Virus record (IMG/VR): IMGVR_UViG_3300020229_000001
Coordinates: 30,386 to 94,385 of that record
Strand: one strand, 5' to 3'
Source of the DNA: a virus
DNA: 64,000 bases
A program made the translations under genes and the position numbers. Below are positions 29,099-58,498 of the stretch, one piece after another (position 1 is the first letter of the stretch; the number at the start of each line of letters is the position of its first letter). A model generated the notes under the pieces. That model was not told the DNA's origin, searched no databases, and worked only from the letters and a program-made list of their open reading frames with translations.

Positions 29099-32000
29099 TT
29101 AATACGTTCCGAATGATGCTGCTGTTAAAATTGCGTCTCTGTTGGCTATAGTAAACGAAGTGGCAGTTGCTGCTGCGTTTGTTGGGTTAGCTCCAACAGT
29201 AAACGTCGTGAGGCTGTTGATTGCAGTCACATACAATTGTGCCGCCCCAGTGATCCCAGACGCAATTGCCGCCCCGACAACGAGGCCAGACGTTGTCCCA
29301 GTTGTTAGCGTAATAAGCGCACTTCCCGTTGTCCAAGTGCCAGCCAATGAGACAAGTGCCGTCAGGTATTCAGTGTTTCCATCCCATTCTACGGAATGCA
29401 CTACTGGCGTTGTTTGAACTACCCCAGCTTGAAACTTTGTTGGGGCACTCGTAAGCGTTCCTGCTGCAAAATTTTGCGTTGAACTTGCGGTAAAAGTATT
29501 ACTTGCTAAAACTGCGTTAGTGTTTCCCCTTGAAGCAACAAGGCTAACGGTTAACGAGTCAACGCCAATTTGCGTTCCAGTTGCGCCTGCCACTAAACTC
29601 ACTGTCAAAATAGCCCCTTGGTTGCCTGTACCAGAGGTAATTGTGACTAAAAGAGGCGCAGTTATATTTCCTGTAAACCAGCTTGGACGAACAAGAGAAA
29701 CTCCAGTGCCAATGCTACTTACAACCCAAGGACCACTTTGCGCCAACGCCGTTTGACTCAAAAAAACAGTATCTCCAGTTGCAAGGGTTTTACCATCAAC
29801 TGTCAAAAGAGATGCCGTAACAAGCGTTGTAGGCGTTGAGTTGTAAAGTATTAGAGCCCCAGATCCAGTTGCCCCAGCACCACTGCTCATCGTGATCTGC
29901 GTCGCGCTATCAACTGTTTTAATAACGCCCGCAGCCACCCCCAAATTGATGCTCATCCCAACAACCGGAGTTATTGAGGAGGTTGCAAAAGTAATAACAC
30001 CAGAGTTTTGAGTCCAACTTGCTCCTGCAATCGTTCCGGCAGTTGCGGGAATTACGTTTGACGTTTGCCTGACTGTAACTAATTGCGGCCCTCCAACAAC
30101 GGCCCTTGCGTCTCCTGCGGTTGTAGAAGCAGTCCCACCATTTGCAATCGAAACAGGCGTTGCAATTGCTGGACCTGTAGCTCCAGTGGCTCCTAGCGTG
30201 CCAATTCCTGTGGCCCCGGTAGCTCCGACAGACCCAATCCCGGTTGCTCCAGTCGCTCCAATACTTCCAATACCCGTAGCTCCCGTAGCCCCAGCGGACC
30301 CAATGCCCGTGGCCCCCGTGGCCCCGATTGTGCCGATCCCTGTGGCCCCAGTCGCGCCAATGCTTCCAATTCCCGTTGCGCCCGTCGCGCCTTGCGTTCC
30401 AATTCCCGTGGCTCCTTGAATACCAATGCCCGTAGCTCCCGTTGACCCCTGTGTGCCAACGCCTGTGGCTCCTTGGAACCCTGTAGCGCCCAACCCTGTA
30501 GCACCTTGAAGTCCTTGCGTTCCGACTCCTGTGCTTCCCTGAGTTCCGACCCCCGTGCTCCCCTGAAAGCCCGTCGCACCAAGCCCGGTTGCCCCTTGCA
30601 AACCTTGAGTTCCAAGCCCGGTTGCTCCTTGCAATCCCTGAGTGCCGACGCCAGTAGAACCCTGATAACCAGTGGCCCCCAATCCAGTTGCTCCTTGTAA
30701 ACCTTGAGTTCCAAGACCCGTCGCCCCTTGTAAGCCTTGAGTTCCAAGACCCGTCGCCCCCGTCGCCCCAATGGCTCCGATGCCAGTAGCCCCAGTAGAT
30801 CCAATATTTCCAATCCCGGTTGCTCCTTGCGTCCCGATGCCTGTAGCCCCCGTGGACCCCTGAGTTCCGATCCCGGTTGCGCCCTGATAACCAGTTGCGC
30901 CCTGCCCGGTTGCGCCCTGTACCCCGGTAGACCCAATGCCAGTCGCCCCTTGTAGTCCTTGTGATCCTATGCCTGTGCTGCCTTGATAACCAGTTGCGCC
31001 AACGCCAGTTGCACCTTGGGACCCAATTCCTGTCGCTCCCTGATACCCAGTGCTTCCTTGATAACCCGTTGATCCAATTCCAGTTGCGCCTTGATAGCCC
31101 GTGCTTCCCTGTAATCCAGACGTAACAATAGCCCAAATCAACTGATGGTTATTGGCAAAATTCGTTGTACCGCTGCCGCCAGAAGTTTGAAGCGTTACAG
31201 GAATTACAATGTAAGAATTGTCGCCAATTGTGGGAGTGCCATTAATTTTCCAACTTTGATAATTATCGGAATTGTTTTGATCTTGAATAACAAACGTGTC
31301 CCCATTTTTATAAAGCGGGAAAAATACATCAATGTCATTTCCATTGCCGTCAATGTGCGAGAATGCAATATTTGCGGAAAGTCGCTGTGTAGCGTTGTCC
31401 CATAAAATGTGCCCATTGGTAATTGGCCCAGTAGGAGGCAGAACTTGAGTAGACGTGTCCGCTTGGTAATTAAAGAATGAGGCCGACTGCCCGTTTGCCC
31501 CCGTCAACCCGGTCGCGCCCTGATACCCGGTACTCCCAATCCCAGTCGCCCCTTGATTTCCTACACCAGTGCTGCCCTGATACCCGGTGCTGCCCTGATC
31601 CCCGGTTGATCCGATTCCAGTAGCCCCTTGATATCCAGTTGAGCCAATCCCAGTGCTACCTTGATACCCGGTCGAGCCGATGCCAGTTGCCCCCTGTAAC
31701 CCTTGAGATCCAATCCCGGTGCTGCCCTGATAACCAGTGGCTCCGATGCCCGTAGCTCCCGTGTCTCCTTGAGTTCCGACCCCGGTTGCGCCCTGCGTTC
31801 CAACGCCCGTACTGCCTTGCAATCCAGTTGCGCCGACGCCTGTAGCCCCTTGAATTCCAACGCCAGTACTGCCCTGCAATCCCTGAGTGCCAACGCCAGT
31901 GGCCCCTTGGAACCCCGTTGCGCCCAACCCCGTTGCGCCCTGAGATCCCTGCGTGCCGATGCCAGTCGCACCCTGCAAGCCCTGAGTGCCGATTCCAGTA

Positions 32001-53522: not shown

Positions 53523-54188
53523 TTAAACTGTTCTGTATGAGGGCCAATCGCACACTGCAACGCCCCCGGTTTCAAGTATGCGGCTAGATATGCTTTCGCC
53601 AACGGATTGAAGAAATGTTTCCTTGGTCTGATTTGAGATAAGGAGCGTATCTCTTTCGGACTGATAGCGTCTATCGATTAGGTGGGTAAGTAGGCGATCC
53701 TCCCAAGCTGTTTCTCCTCGTTCCTGCATTTCGTCGAGCACCAAGTAGGCGGGGGCGCAGTAACGCTCGATCACATCTTTCTCAGATCCGCCCTTGTCCC
53801 TAAAGGACTCTTTGATGTCTATAAAGAACCCCATCGCCGTTGCGTACAATGGGCGTTTCCCGGCGTTTGCAATCATCTTGGCTATCTGCACCGCCATTTG
53901 AGTCTTCCCGGTGCCCCTGCGCCCTACCAGCGCAATAATGAATCCAGTGCCAAGTCGCTTCTCCACCCGAGCCTGAACTTTCAGCCAATGCCCCCCTTGC
54001 AGGTCAACGGAAGTAACATTGCGGTGCCGTGGCGGGATGTTCGCTTTCGCGAGGTACTCGATGCCCTTTTCACGGAGCATCCGAGTCTCCTGCTCTTTCT
54101 CGCGTTGCTGGATCTCGTCCTTAGACAAGGTCAGGAACCTCGATTGTTTCAACAAACTCTCTGCTACGTTTTTCGCTTCGGTGATCAT
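53523..54188 (-). CDS. DnaC/IstB-like AAA+ ATPase, putative helicase loader (221 aa)
   Basis: Walker A is GRRGTGKT (89-96) within FIIALVGRRGTGKTQMAVQI. Walker B is YLVLDEMQ (148-155). Later come LLTHLIDRRYQSERDTLLIS, with the sensor-type Asn in SNQT, and SISSRILETGG with the Arg finger region. This is the DnaC/IstB loader pattern. The N-terminal helix would recruit a helicase, presumably the host DnaB, as no helicase gene is present in the window. The first 68 nt overlap the end of the DUF1376 gene. Confidence 0.8.
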   Translation of the reverse strand: MITEAKNVAESLLKQSRFLTLSKDEIQQREKEQETRMLREKGIEYLAKANIPPRHRNVTSVDLQGGHWLKVQARVEKRLGTGFIIALVGRRGTGKTQMAVQIAKMIANAGKRPLYATAMGFFIDIKESFRDKGGSEKDVIERYCAPAYLVLDEMQERGETAWEDRLLTHLIDRRYQSERDTLLISNQTKETFLQSVGESISSRILETGGVAVCDWPSYRTV

Positions 54189-54915
54189 GGTTGATTTTTG
54201 ACTTTTCCTGCTGTTCGTAAAACTGACTGTACCCGGCTGCCATTGCCGCCCTGAGCGCTGGAATGGCTTTCTCTAGCCCTAGATCCTCGGCTCTCAGCAA
54301 AGCATTGCGAAGTGCCGTTGGGGTCATGGGCTTTTTGATCTCGACTCTGTGCTGCTGAAATTCCGCAAAAACAGATTTAAATTCAACAGTATCGAACCCC
54401 GCAGGGTAATCAATTTCCCCCGCAGGGGGATTAAGGGGGGTGCTCTTTAATTTGGTTCTTGGTTTATGGTTCTTGGTTCTTGGTTCTTGGTTCTTGGTTG
54501 GTATACCAGTGTCCGTATACGGCGACTGGTATACCGTGGGTATGTTTTCTGATACCGTCGGTATGTTTTCCGATACCGCCGGTATACCGTCGGTATTTTT
54601 AGACCACCGCTTGGAAACTCTGGCCCTCTGTTGTTCTGAGAGTGATTGATACTTTTCCAGCTCTTTGTCGGCTCGCTTATGCGACCAAACGCCGTTGCAG
54701 TGAGAAAAGAACTCCCGCAAAACTCGTTCCACGGCTTCGCGTTCGTCCTGTGCCCGGGCGGACAGCTTTCGGATCAGGTCGTCAACAGTGAGTTGAAGCG
54801 GTCCGTTGTTAAGGTAGTAGAGATCGAGCAGGCGGCTGTAAACGCCGTGCTCAAGTAGGGACAGGTGACCTGTGTCACGCAGGTAGTCCCCAATGTGTCG
54901 AGGGTAATGGTTCAT
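54121..54915 (-). CDS. replication initiation protein, DUF1376 domain (264 aa)
   Basis: The start MNHYPRHIGDYLRDTGHLSL at 54915 marks the DUF1376 (YdaU-like) winged-helix domain (about 1-90, with LEHGVYSRLLDLYYLNNGPL). It is followed by a linker with tandem near-repeats (SENIPTVSENIPTV) and then basic repeats (EPRTKNHKPRTK). The C-terminal part (about 170-264) contains EFKSVFAEFQQHRVEIKKPM, resembling DnaC-interaction domains. The arrangement with a helicase loader just downstream copies lambda O-P. The DNA of the linker holds iteron-like repeats. Confidence 0.75.
   Translation of the reverse strand: MNHYPRHIGDYLRDTGHLSLLEHGVYSRLLDLYYLNNGPLQLTVDDLIRKLSARAQDEREAVERVLREFFSHCNGVWSHKRADKELEKYQSLSEQQRARVSKRWSKNTDGIPAVSENIPTVSENIPTVYQSPYTDTGIPTKNQEPRTKNHKPRTKLKSTPLNPPAGEIDYPAGFDTVEFKSVFAEFQQHRVEIKKPMTPTALRNALLRAEDLGLEKAIPALRAAMAAGYSQFYEQQEKSKINHDHRSEKRSREFVETIEVPDLV
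54417..54600. repeat. iteron-like repeats inside the replication gene: candidate replication origin
   Basis: From 54454 to 54501 the 7-bp unit ggttctt recurs six times, one copy changed to ggtttat. From 54539 two 21-bp direct repeats (ggtatgttttctgatacc..., ggtatgttttccgatacc...) are followed by a partial one. Palindromic ggtatacc occurs at about 54501, 54529 and 54581. A ccccc/ggggg hairpin lies at 54417-54429. Repeats within the initiator gene are how lambda places its origin. The alternative is simple expansion of a protein linker. Confidence 0.55.
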
Positions 54916-55330
54916 CGATTGAATAAATTGATAGATTGATGGATGGGGACTCCCCCTTGGCAGCGTAGACCTTTTCAACGGTCGCCCGGACGATCTGCCC
55001 GTCGTCCTCCCAAAAGCCCTCCAAGGCATCTTGCGTGCCTTTGCAGAGGTTGTCCCAGTCGGGGCGAGCGTCCATCCACATGCGCCCCTCTGGGTCTTTT
55101 TTCCGCTGTAGCCGCTGCGGGCGGGCCATCACAAATAACACTTCAATTCCCATCGGCCCGGTGATGGCGGCTACGGGCCGATGTTGGTTTGCAAACAGGC
55201 GTATCGCGTCCAGATACCTCGTCGTGCGCTTGTCCTTGAAGAAGACTGGCTTGCCTCCTTTAATAAACATTCGCTTGCCCCCGGTCTGAACTGGGATGGC
55301 CTCAACGGGTATCTGGAACGTGACCCTCAT
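54875..55330 (-). CDS. rusA: RusA-type Holliday-junction resolvase (151 aa)
   Basis: The catalytic pattern RPDWDNLCKGTQDALEGFWE, with DD at 109-110, gives the conserved Asp set of RusA (D-x-DN...D...DD). The N-terminus (MRVTFQIPVEAIPVQTGGKR) and the length are normal. RusA cuts branched recombination intermediates. It lies in an operon with recombination ATPase, nuclease and SSB-like genes, and overlaps the DUF1376 start by 41 nt. Confidence 0.85.
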   Translation of the reverse strand: MRVTFQIPVEAIPVQTGGKRMFIKGGKPVFFKDKRTTRYLDAIRLFANQHRPVAAITGPMGIEVLFVMARPQRLQRKKDPEGRMWMDARPDWDNLCKGTQDALEGFWEDDGQIVRATVEKVYAAKGESPSINLSIYSIDEPLPSTHWGLPA

Positions 55331-55332
55331 GC

Positions 55333-55932
55333 CTAGAACGGGATGTCGTCGTCGGTCAGATCAATCGGGTCCGATGCGTACACCGTGCGCTGCGGAGTTG
55401 CCGGGCGGGACGCTGGAGCGGCTGCTGGAGCTGCCCCGGTCTCGGCCTGAATGGACTTCGCCACGGCTTGCAGCTTCCGGGACAACGCCGACATTTTGGT
55501 GCGGTCGAGCGGTGTTCCCGCCGGGCGGGCGTCGGGATCGTTGAGCCACGTCGCTTCATACATAGGCTCGCCCTTTTTTGTGTACGCTAGCTCCCGGCCT
55601 CCATTCTGGCCAGCCTTGGTCCGCTGCTCGATTGTCACGAGCACTGCCCGGCCTTCGAGGAACCCGTCGCCTTGAGCCAGTAGGTCAAACCAGTTTGCCG
55701 GGGCCTTGAGAGCCTCAAGAAGCATGCGAGACGTGCGTGCTATTGATTTATCGGACGAGATATACCCCTCCCAGATGATAGTGCATCCGCCCTGCGCGGG
55801 ATCTTCTGGATCGATGACAAGAGGTATGCGGACAAACTCCGCTCCGTTGTCGGTTTCTGACAACCAACCCCCGGTCGTGGGGCGCTGGACATATGCCCGG
55901 AAACGTCCGGGTTGCGTGATGTATTTGCTCAT
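55333..55932 (-). CDS. single-stranded-DNA-binding-like protein (199 aa)
   Basis: The N-terminal ~130 residues form a beta-rich domain (RFRAYVQRPTTGGWLSETDN; GGCTIIWEGYISSDKSIART) with a small-molecule-like KNGGRELAYTKK segment. The rest is an Ala/Pro-rich linker and an acidic end DLTDDDIPF, the hallmark of bacterial and phage SSB tails that recruit replication partners. It sits between Sak4-like ATPase and RusA. The call rests on architecture, tail and neighbourhood. Confidence 0.7.
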   Translation of the reverse strand: MSKYITQPGRFRAYVQRPTTGGWLSETDNGAEFVRIPLVIDPEDPAQGGCTIIWEGYISSDKSIARTSRMLLEALKAPANWFDLLAQGDGFLEGRAVLVTIEQRTKAGQNGGRELAYTKKGEPMYEATWLNDPDARPAGTPLDRTKMSALSRKLQAVAKSIQAETGAAPAAAPASRPATPQRTVYASDPIDLTDDDIPF

Positions 55933-55934
55933 GG

Positions 55935-56813
55935 TTATTGTAGTGACTGAAGTTTAACTATCCCTGCCTTAATGCGGTCAGCTGGAAGGGTTTCAATTGG
56001 GGTTTTGGTATACGCAACCTTCTGCTCTTTTGTGAGCGTTGAGGTGGTGAGTAGTGCAGTGAATTCCTGACGCAACTTTGCTGGAGAATTGGCGTCAACT
56101 GCGGCTGCAAACTCTTCGTAAGACAGGTTCAACGTCTCTGGCAGTGAGAGGCGATTCTTGGCATCCCAGCCCGGGCTCCAACAAGTCTGAATGATGCGGC
56201 CTCCACCGATAGTCTTGTCTGGCTTGCCCCCAGCGGACTTAGTTTTGAACACCTCGTACACGGCGAACAGGCAAGCGTCTGGCCATTCCCGGAGAATCCC
56301 GGTGAATCCCTTGTGCCCCTTCATCTCGTAACGGTCCCACTGCTCGCCCCCGGGCTGAGTAAAGGTCTTAATCTGGACGTGGCTGAGAAGAATGATGCCA
56401 AACTTCTGGCGTTCTCGGAGCGTGTCGAGTTTGTTGAGCAGTGCAGACAGCTCGAACTCGGCAACCTTGTAGCCTTTGCCAAAGCCGTAGCTTTCAATGT
56501 TAGTCTGGCCATCTCTTTTACAGACGTACCCGTGGATAGACCGCTCCAAGGAGTCTGTGGTGTCAACTACGAGGGTTTTGAAATCCCCGGGATTGGTGGT
56601 CAACTCATCGACTGTGGCCAGCGTGTCACCAAACGAGTCAGGGGTGATGCGGGCGACATGATCGAGCCCAGTGAGCCCTTGCTCTTGGCTGATAAACAAC
56701 GGCGATGGCGCTGCTGCTCCAAATGTTGACTTACCGATGCCTTCTGGACCGGAAAGAAGGATGCGTGGGGGGAGGGATTCTCCGCCTCGTTTAATTTTTG
56801 CTAGTATGCTCAT
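55935..56813 (-). CDS. Sak4-like RecA-fold ATPase (AAA_24, 292 aa)
   Basis: Walker A is GPEGIGKST (22-30). TLVVDTTDSLE is Walker B. YGFGKGYKVAEFELSALLNK and IILLSHVQIKTF are typical of phage Sak4/AAA_24 single-strand annealing partners. Later, the KGHKGFTGILREWPDACLFA region is also characteristic. Sak4 proteins anneal DNA together with an SSB, matching the SSB-like gene downstream. The nuclease gene upstream completes a recombination set. Confidence 0.8.
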   Translation of the reverse strand: MSILAKIKRGGESLPPRILLSGPEGIGKSTFGAAAPSPLFISQEQGLTGLDHVARITPDSFGDTLATVDELTTNPGDFKTLVVDTTDSLERSIHGYVCKRDGQTNIESYGFGKGYKVAEFELSALLNKLDTLRERQKFGIILLSHVQIKTFTQPGGEQWDRYEMKGHKGFTGILREWPDACLFAVYEVFKTKSAGGKPDKTIGGGRIIQTCWSPGWDAKNRLSLPETLNLSYEEFAAAVDANSPAKLRQEFTALLTTSTLTKEQKVAYTKTPIETLPADRIKAGIVKLQSLQ

Positions 56814-56823
56814 ATGTATCGAT

Positions 56824-57879
56824 TTACTGGTTAACTACGAAGTGCCGCAGAAACTCTTCTGCCGCGTTGTGGAAGCCTGTGCCAAGAGCAAGGGCTTCGT
56901 CAATCTCTCCCAGCCTTTTTGTTGGCTGTTCGTAACGGAGAAAGTGATACCTGCTGCACTTGCGAAGTGCCGTCAGGCGCGAGTTGGTCAGGAGCTGTTT
57001 TTCTCCTTCCTTGAGGGTCAGCTCTGCGTGTTTTGTCGCAGGTCCGAATCGGATGTTGTCCACGGTCGCCCGGCCTGCGCACAGGTCGTAGAACTCGCAG
57101 GTTCCGTACTGCGTGCACGCTCCCGGGTTTCGTGGCCATAGGTTGCGATTGCGGAAATACAGAAGTTGCTGGGACATGGCCCACGCATCCCCCATGTACT
57201 CAAGCAGGTCGTTGTCGGTGCGTCCGACTTCCTTTACAGCAAAGTAAGAATCCCGCTTTTCATTGATCTCACCAAGCGTCCGGGCGGATAACTCCTCGAG
57301 GGTCTCTGGCCGGGTTTGTAAGACGTACCCGGCGTCAGTGTCCGCCGTCTGTCTCCACTTTTTTCCGTCCTTTGTGCGTACCCGCTCCCCGGCTGCGTCG
57401 AGGACGATCTTGACGCCCTCCTCGTCCAGCAACGGAATGTTGCCAAGCTTATACCCGGGCTTGCGGACAACGTCGTACACGACCGTGTTGGCGTCGATGC
57501 CCCGGGAGCGCAGGCTTAGGATGTACTTGCTGATCTGGGTGTCCATTGTGAGACGCCCCCAATACATCGAGTCGGCGTCGATTGAGTCGCTGGTCGTTTT
57601 GTGCTCGAGGACCTTGAGCACCCCGGTCTGCTTGTGACGCAGGACCCCGTCGATCTTCCCGGCTTCGAGGAAAGACCGAGAGGGAGCCTCGGTCTCCGGG
57701 TTTAGCAGTGGGAACGTGAATTCCGACTCCACTTCAAGAACGTCGTGCGCCTCGAGCACCGGGATGAATGACTCCACCCAGCCCATGAATAGGCCCCGGG
57801 CTTTGGCCAGCGCCACGTCGGTTGCCGGGACCCGGGAAAGACCGCCAGTGACTGCGGTACGATAGATTGATGTGTCCAT
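56824..57879 (-). CDS. PD-(D/E)XK nuclease of RecB/Cas4 type with circularly permuted motifs (351 aa)
   Basis: Motifs in order: GKID (74-77), LEHKTT (91-96, giving E92-x-K94), TQISKY (114-119, the QxxxY motif), then CTQYGTCEFYDLC (Cys 255, 261, 267). After these come NSRLTALRKCSRYHFLRYEQ (Cys 308) and ALALGTGFHNAAEEF (His 337). In the usual Cas4/RecB-like layout the SRLxxxxxC block and the GxxxH block come first, before GxxD. Here they are at the C-terminus, so all four Cys of a 4Fe-4S site and all catalytic motifs are kept but permuted. It is probably a 5'-3' exonuclease supplying single strands for Sak4. Confidence 0.8.
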   Translation of the reverse strand: MDTSIYRTAVTGGLSRVPATDVALAKARGLFMGWVESFIPVLEAHDVLEVESEFTFPLLNPETEAPSRSFLEAGKIDGVLRHKQTGVLKVLEHKTTSDSIDADSMYWGRLTMDTQISKYILSLRSRGIDANTVVYDVVRKPGYKLGNIPLLDEEGVKIVLDAAGERVRTKDGKKWRQTADTDAGYVLQTRPETLEELSARTLGEINEKRDSYFAVKEVGRTDNDLLEYMGDAWAMSQQLLYFRNRNLWPRNPGACTQYGTCEFYDLCAGRATVDNIRFGPATKHAELTLKEGEKQLLTNSRLTALRKCSRYHFLRYEQPTKRLGEIDEALALGTGFHNAAEEFLRHFVVNQ

Positions 57880-57880
57880 G

Positions 57881-58498
57881 TTAGATTTCGGTTTCTGCTT
57901 CTTCTGTTTCGATTAATTCGTCGTCTCCGTCAACCCGGCGATTGGCAACAAGCTCTGGGTAGCCGCAAGTGATTAGGTTTCTACGGAGCGTTGTGCTGCT
58001 CAACAACTGGTTGTTTTTAAAACCAACGACCCACTGGTCAAACTTGGAAAACTGGCCCTTCTCCCCGGCAATAGTGTCGCCCACGATGTCCCACCAGATA
58101 ACGCAAGCTGTGTGCGCTCGTTCTGGCTCTGGAAGAAAGCCGACTTGCCATACCCATTCCTGCACCTTTCTGCCTTTTTTTAGGACACTGAACTCTTGAG
58201 TGGCATAATAAAGCGCCTCCTCTTCCAATGTGTAAGGTCTCCACGAGTTTTCATAAATTGAGTCACAGACTCGATAAAGCGCTAAAAACTGACTTGGACT
58301 TAATTTAAGTTCCGCTACTTCGGCATCCCGATTTTTAGGCTCCATGCGATTGATAAGCACAACCCTTCTTAACATTGAGGTGGCGCTGAAGTTCCCGGCA
58401 ACCGCTTTGAGCATTGAGACCTGTTTTGCATCGGACCCGGTGACGGCCTGTAGCAGACCTCGGGCAATTTTGCTGTCCCACTTTTTGAGTGTTTTCAT
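57881..58498 (-). CDS. hypothetical protein (205 aa)
   Basis: The N-terminus is basic and helical (MKTLKKWDSKIARGLLQAVT). The middle has SQFLALYRVCDSIYENSWRP and WVWQVGFLPEPERAHTACVI, and the C-terminus is acidic (DELIETEEAETEI). I recognise no family. It lies two bases upstream of the nuclease gene in the recombination operon. Confidence 0.6.
   Translation of the reverse strand: MKTLKKWDSKIARGLLQAVTGSDAKQVSMLKAVAGNFSATSMLRRVVLINRMEPKNRDAEVAELKLSPSQFLALYRVCDSIYENSWRPYTLEEEALYYATQEFSVLKKGRKVQEWVWQVGFLPEPERAHTACVIWWDIVGDTIAGEKGQFSKFDQWVVGFKNNQLLSSTTLRRNLITCGYPELVANRRVDGDDELIETEEAETEI

Follow-up and report, generated by a model that had tools for sequence, protein, structure and literature searches.

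The window analysed here is a 64,000-nucleotide stretch of an IMG/VR virus record (IMGVR_UViG_3300020229_000001, positions 30,386 to 94,385). It contains a recombination module in which the nuclease gene is followed by the genes of a Sak4-like annealing ATPase, an SSB-like protein, a RusA-type resolvase and a DUF1376/primosomal-type protein (Table 1). The reading frame of the nuclease is a real gene, and its ATG is located one base past the stop codon of the upstream gene. Proteins similar to the product of this upstream gene also precede the nuclease in two other loci (L003 and L004). The SSB-like protein is the positional counterpart of the gene annotated as SSB in phage Tunturi_2, and it ends in DDDIPF, identical to the tip of the SSB of E. 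coli. The true start of the DUF1376 protein is probably further in; the listed start overlaps the RusA gene. The neighbours are Sak4, SSB-like, RusA and primosomal-type genes, and the cas genes expected beside a Cas4 of CRISPR adaptation are absent from them. Outside the window (G000:C1:23412-25351, loci L010/L251), the 94,385-base record has another recombination module related to the first, with a nuclease 65% and a Sak4 72% identical to those of the window. By its coordinates, the record corresponds to IMGVR_UViG_3300021079_000006 (66,054 bases) with a further 28,331 bases, and it may therefore join two related phage genomes or adjacent prophages, or be a chimeric contig.

Table 1 Features of the permuted nuclease and its neighbours in the window.
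Feature	Position	Strand	Remarks
Predicted circularly permuted RecB/Cas4-type (PD-(D/E)XK, four-Cys) exonuclease	56824..57879	-	351 aa; profiles, AlphaFold2 model
Catalytic core and three-Cys cluster, residues 1-291	57007..57879	-	about 80-329 of the usual-order profile
GKID motif, residues 74-77 (G74-D77)	57649..57660	-	D77 conserved; sequence, conservation by alignment
EHK, residues 92-94 (E92, K94)	57598..57606	-	(D/E)xK of the active site; sequence, conservation
QISKY, residues 115-119 (Q115, Y119)	57523..57537	-	QxxxY motif; sequence, conservation
C255, C261, C267	57079..57117	-	predicted Fe-S cluster ligands, three of four; Cys in all permuted proteins (76/76)
SRLxxxxxC ... GxxxH block, residues 296-351	56827..56994	-	N-terminal in usual-order relatives, C-terminal here
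C308	56956..56958	-	fourth cluster cysteine, within SRLTALRKC; Cys in all permuted (76/76) and usual-order (74/74) proteins
GTGFH, residues 333-337	56869..56883	-	H337 of the GxxxH motif; conservation
Sak4-like ssDNA annealing ATPase	55935..56813	-	phrog_124 (E 3e-35), AAA_24; immediate 3' neighbour, presumed partner
SSB-like protein	55333..55932	-	no family hit; position, gene order as in L007; PMC5928155
RusA-type Holliday junction resolvase	54875..55330	-	same module
DUF1376 / primosomal-type protein	54121..55029	-	next in module
205-aa protein, no family	57881..58498	-	directly upstream of the nuclease, one-base gap

The earlier note had placed GKID, EHK, QxxxY and three cysteines first and the SRLxxLRKC and GxxxH blocks last, and the motifs were found exactly there. 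The residues of the GxxxH, GKxD, (D/E)xK and QxxxY motifs are all present and conserved (H337, D77, E92, K94, Q115 and Y119), as are the four cysteines of the family, one from the N-terminal block (C308) and three following the core (C255, C261 and C267, invariant in alignment A6), although the cluster itself is only predicted. The linear order of the family, N-terminal block, GKxD, ExK, QxxxY and cysteine cluster, is not kept, since the N-terminal block is at the C-terminus, and profile matches show that the segment of residues 1-291, normally C-terminal, is N-terminal in the window protein. Residues 298-345 match positions 3-50 of Pfam PF12705 PDDEXK_1 (E 2e-5, 25.1 bits against a gathering score of 22), residues 41-267 match positions 113-329 of phrog_1218 (E 7e-20), and the C-terminal 56 residues scanned alone match phrog_1218 positions 9-56 (E 9e-6). 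These matches show that the motifs are not there by chance. Because the motif order of the family is not met, the protein is, as judged from its sequence, a permuted variant of the PDDEXK_1/phrog_1218 exonucleases rather than an ordinary member. Homologues with identities of 91-94%, 74% and about 30%, among them those of phages Tunturi_1 and Tunturi_2, have the same order and retain every motif residue.

A usual-order profile was built from 23 close usual-order relatives, and all relatives were searched with it. The window reading frame matched in two crossed pieces, with positions 31-300 aligned to profile 80-329 and positions 306-356 to profile 9-58 (numbered from stop to stop; subtraction of 11 gives the residue number of the protein). 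All 48 of 48 usual-order representatives kept the normal order with the same profile, and all but one matched as a single collinear stretch. When the window protein was rotated in steps of three residues and scored against the usual-order profile, its best single-domain score rose from 217.9 to 253.6 bits, with the peak for a start at residue 292. Rotation likewise raised the collinear match above the native one in L007, L047, L142, L157 and L181, whereas usual-order controls scored highest when started at their native ends or no more than a few residues away. In L182, rotation did not restore one single stretch, probably due to a long tail. The rotated window sequence gave a single collinear match to phrog_1218 (1-323 to 9-329), and its match to PDDEXK_1 extended to positions 3-196 with 34.4 bits, compared to 3-50 with 25.1 bits in the native order. 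Both refuting conditions of the earlier note turned out in favour of its interpretation. One was the existence of usual-order homologues aligning end to end; the homologues that do so share the permuted order, and the usual-order ones align only as two crossed pieces. The crossed two-piece match and the one collinear match after rotation identify the protein, at the level of sequence, as a true circular permutant with the rotation point near residue 292-296.

The structure of the window protein was predicted with AlphaFold2, for which 34 permuted sequences were used. The model had a pLDDT of 93.4 and a pTM of 0.85. The C-terminal block, whose folding as an unrelated domain was the other refuting condition of the note, was predicted with high confidence (94, 94, 96, 86, 96 and 93 in ten-residue blocks from residue 291, with only the last residue low). 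A Foldseek search of the PDB returned mostly RecB-family nucleases first, namely MGME1, AddAB, AdnAB, Cas4 SSO0001, RecE, RecBCD and Exo5, with probabilities of up to 1.00 but TM scores of 0.2-0.3 and rmsd mostly of 10-20 Å, an outcome to be expected where an order-bound aligner is given a permuted chain. A sequence search of the PDB with the permuted profile gave no meaningful match. In BFVD, A0A6J5NSY1 matched end to end with TM 0.72/0.74 over 368 columns and A0A6J5MFE0 with TM 0.59/0.73, and the remaining matches reached 0.2-0.5. By their models, these two are probably likewise permuted, although their motif order was not checked. Both are uncultured-phage proteins with 15-20% identity to the window protein, and they hint at a wider permuted group. 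The meeting of the four cysteines and the H, D, E and K residues in a single site is an inference from homology and the confidence of the model. A model of a protein permuted within the catalytic core was not used as evidence, given its middling confidence (pLDDT 71.6) and the lack of a PDB match.

The scan of viral contigs and genomes yielded 249 loci. According to profile order, 76 distinct proteins are permuted, a few of them cut by contig ends, and 74 distinct proteins have the usual order, so that the permutation of the window protein is common to a large lineage. Permuted copies occur in bacterial bins of Chthoniobacterales, Planctomycetaceae, Pirellulales and Acidobacteriia, where they may belong to prophages or to phage contigs that were binned with the bacteria. 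Isolated phages with a permuted copy are Tunturi_1 and Tunturi_2 of Tunturiibacter. Their proteins have the same permuted order and are about 30% identical to the window protein along 94% of its length, and their genes adjoin Sak4 and SSB as in the window; the records annotate them just as 'exonuclease' and do not mention the permutation. The nuclease genes of three loci are split into two frames (L091 2692-4021; L130 5959-7345; L079 735-2009 and downstream), for which a frameshift, a sequencing error or a programmed event are possible causes.

The permuted proteins have their new ends at two sites. In 54 of them, including the window protein, the break follows GxxxH (site A), and in the other 22 it separates the GKxD strand from the ExK strand within the catalytic core (site B). 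Site-B loci lie among L154-L185 and L191-L213 (L154, L156, L157, L163, L164, L171, L179, L181, L182, L184 and others; for example, L157 4998-6041). Their genes start at the ExK strand (for example MKVYLWETKTT...) and end with the GKxD strand (for example ...ASRTFSLGGRVDAIVE...), and in profile coordinates they run from 138-147 to about 330 and then from 4-10 to 139-145. Site A is not uniform. The helix 'LxAALxAI' lies at the N-terminus in the window and Tunturi groups, whose new ends are near profile 62, whereas in L047 and L142 it lies at the C-terminus, and the new ends, near profile 73-83, overlap by 6-10 positions (L047 matches profile 74-329 plus 7-83, and L142 matches 73-331 plus 9-78). 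Two breakpoints, arguably three, can therefore be read from the sequences.

Tandem duplication with a new start and stop, and fission followed by fusion, are the standard models for the origin of permutants (PMC3320104). The earlier note had suggested a tandem duplication with loss of the outer halves. Incomplete trimming of such a duplicate would leave overlaps such as those of L047 and L142. These overlapping ends, together with an in-frame ATG that usual-order L049 has at the position of the start of L047, favour duplication on sequence grounds. The suggestion remains plausible and unproven, because neither an intermediate nor a relic was found: the collected relatives included no tandem, two-headed or half-trimmed duplicates, and the flanks of the nuclease genes contained no relics, their few strong matches being the genes in two frames of L091, L130 and L079. 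The missing duplicated intermediate leaves room for fission and fusion, in which the ancestral gene was split and its pieces were re-fused in the other order. However, a split, two-gene version was not seen either, and overlapping ends are expected from duplication and not from a clean split. We regard fission and fusion as a possible but less favoured route, and as a rival for the origin only, not for the identity of the protein.

The number of permutation events was assessed from a tree of the core and moved block (97 rows, careful IQ-TREE), in which the architecture requires six changes. L047 groups with usual-order L049 and L133 (100/99), and L142 is placed among usual-order rows. For the moved block, the nearest relatives of L047 and L142 have the usual order, and these blocks were therefore not borrowed from the window clade. 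In AU tests, which were run on quick trees, one clade of all permuted proteins was rejected (p = 0.010), as was one clade of all site-A proteins (p = 0.020). The groups L047+L142 (p = 0.009), window clade+L142 (p = 0.038) and, as a borderline case, window clade+L047 (p = 0.051) were named after the tree had been seen. The rejection of a single permuted clade implies that the state changed between permuted and usual more than once. An earlier, smaller test of the core only, also on quick trees and with fewer permuted forms known, had not rejected their grouping in one clade (p = 0.104), so that the single origin is rejected in the joint data but not in the smaller set. Separate origins of the window and Tunturi clades are unsupported, since one origin fits as well (p = 0.589; the tree holding them together was better by 3.1 log units).

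PDDEXK_1, phrog_1218 and the more distant relatives all have the usual order, which is why we regard it as ancestral. State counts alone cannot distinguish gain from loss or exclude reversals, and they leave room for a single permutation with later returns to the usual order and re-permutation, or for one permuted clade on which the trees were misled. The possible shared origin of the window and Tunturi clades, and likewise of the site-B forms (not rejected as one clade, p = 0.595), points in the same direction. Against it stand the rejection of one permuted clade, the moved blocks of L047 and L142, and the different positions of the new ends (profile about 62, about 73-83 and about 140-145), which need more than one event. 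We consider a single permutation unlikely. The sequences indicate at least two events, probably three or four. It is likely that nature has permuted this single phage exonuclease family that many times and in two or three places, one of them between the strands with the catalytic Asp and the Glu/Lys, with the full active site and the cluster cysteines kept each time.

The catalytic D/E/K/Q/Y/H residues and the four cysteines are kept in nearly all of the site-A, site-B and usual-order proteins; at the first position of (D/E)xK, 34 site-A proteins have Glu and 18 have Asp. Where dS was unsaturated, the core gave dN/dS values of 0.03-0.16 and the moved block of 0-0.12; site-B pairs gave 0.02-0.09. 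Where a locus extends at least 1.5 kb past the nuclease gene, the next gene encodes a Sak4 homologue in all permuted cases (44/44 site-A and 22/22 site-B, 66/66 together) and in 59/64 usual-order ones. The permutation, its conservation, the selection, the operon partner and more than one change of state are all demonstrated by comparison of sequences.

Based on these observations, a mechanism can be proposed. A short linker would connect the N-terminal block, with the first cluster cysteine and the GxxxH helix, to the old C-terminus with cysteines two to four, and new chain ends would open after the GxxxH helix, lying between helices. The old termini may be joinable without strain because both would serve a single Fe-S cluster, and the three-dimensional site would remain unchanged. 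Phage recombination offers an analogy in lambda Exo, the end-resecting partner of Red beta. Sak4 of phage HK620 anneals ssDNA, aided by its SSB and by the C-terminal tip of SSB (PMC5928155). The nuclease, read as an end-resecting partner on account of its Sak4 neighbour, would most likely resect DNA ends, after which the adjacent Sak4 annealase, aided by SSB, would pair the single strands.

The C-terminal block could instead complete an active site other than that of its own chain, either in a neighbouring subunit by domain swap or, in trans, in another nuclease. Oligomers are frequent among recombination exonucleases, and sequence data cannot separate completion in cis from that in trans. We find this improbable, as the AlphaFold2 model of the monomer is confident throughout, the linker from the third cysteine to the moved block is short, the four cysteines are close in sequence, and the flanks of permuted genes showed no partner nuclease of the same family. 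An assembly chimera, a decaying gene or a misread frame can practically be excluded even though two related recombination modules occur on this long contig of metagenomic origin, since the order recurs in bacterial bins, in the isolated phages Tunturi_1 and Tunturi_2 and in dozens of contigs independent of each other, is shared by L047 and L136 from two metagenomes (95% identical over 4.4 kb), and is accompanied by low dN/dS and no internal stops. In our judgement, the gene very probably encodes a working, circularly permuted RecB/Cas4-type exonuclease that resects DNA ends for Sak4 and SSB and belongs to a permutation-tolerant family; its activity, the cluster geometry and the origin by tandem duplication are inferred, and there are no biochemical data.

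The earlier note had held that a working permuted phage exonuclease would be new. We found no report of a permuted RecB/Cas4-type nuclease in a search limited to open-licence papers. A survey of the PD-(D/E)XK superfamily reportedly mentions permutations; the newness extends to the RecB/Cas4-type nuclease only, and not to other PD-(D/E)XK branches. A survey of the Cas4 family does not mention permutation (PMC5704561). With 76 permuted and 74 unpermuted proteins in the same operon position, more than one change of order and differing breakpoints, the origin of permutants and the footprints of their ends become testable, as does a structural rule that ends sharing a metal cluster can be joined. 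If the interpretation is correct, the family is a natural laboratory for how permutants arise and why the fold tolerates them, and it provides ready permuted nuclease scaffolds beside Sak4/SSB recombination modules. It also carries a warning that order-bound profile and fold searches under-score permuted proteins.

The closest known relatives, phrog_1218 and PF12705 PDDEXK_1, share the catalytic and cysteine motifs, a similar length and homology over nearly the whole profile, and usual-order relatives occupy the same location adjoining Sak4; they differ from the window protein in the exchange of two chain segments, seen as the crossed match. The Foldseek matches to the structures of Cas4, AddB, RecB, MGME1 and RecE suggest a shared core fold, with TM scores low under the order-bound aligner. 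Cas4 has four conserved cysteines, as does the window protein (PMC5704561), but the latter is neither CRISPR-associated nor fused to a helicase. Natural circular permutants of enzymes are uncommon and are usually inferred from a pair of proteins. DNA methyltransferases (PMC3320104; PMC10853773, which lists Bujnicki 2002 for them) are one example, and another is the HD domain of Cas10 (PMC3150331). Like the window protein, these are permuted nucleic-acid enzymes, but their folds are unrelated, and, unlike the window family with its predicted cluster, they have no Fe-S cluster joining the old ends.
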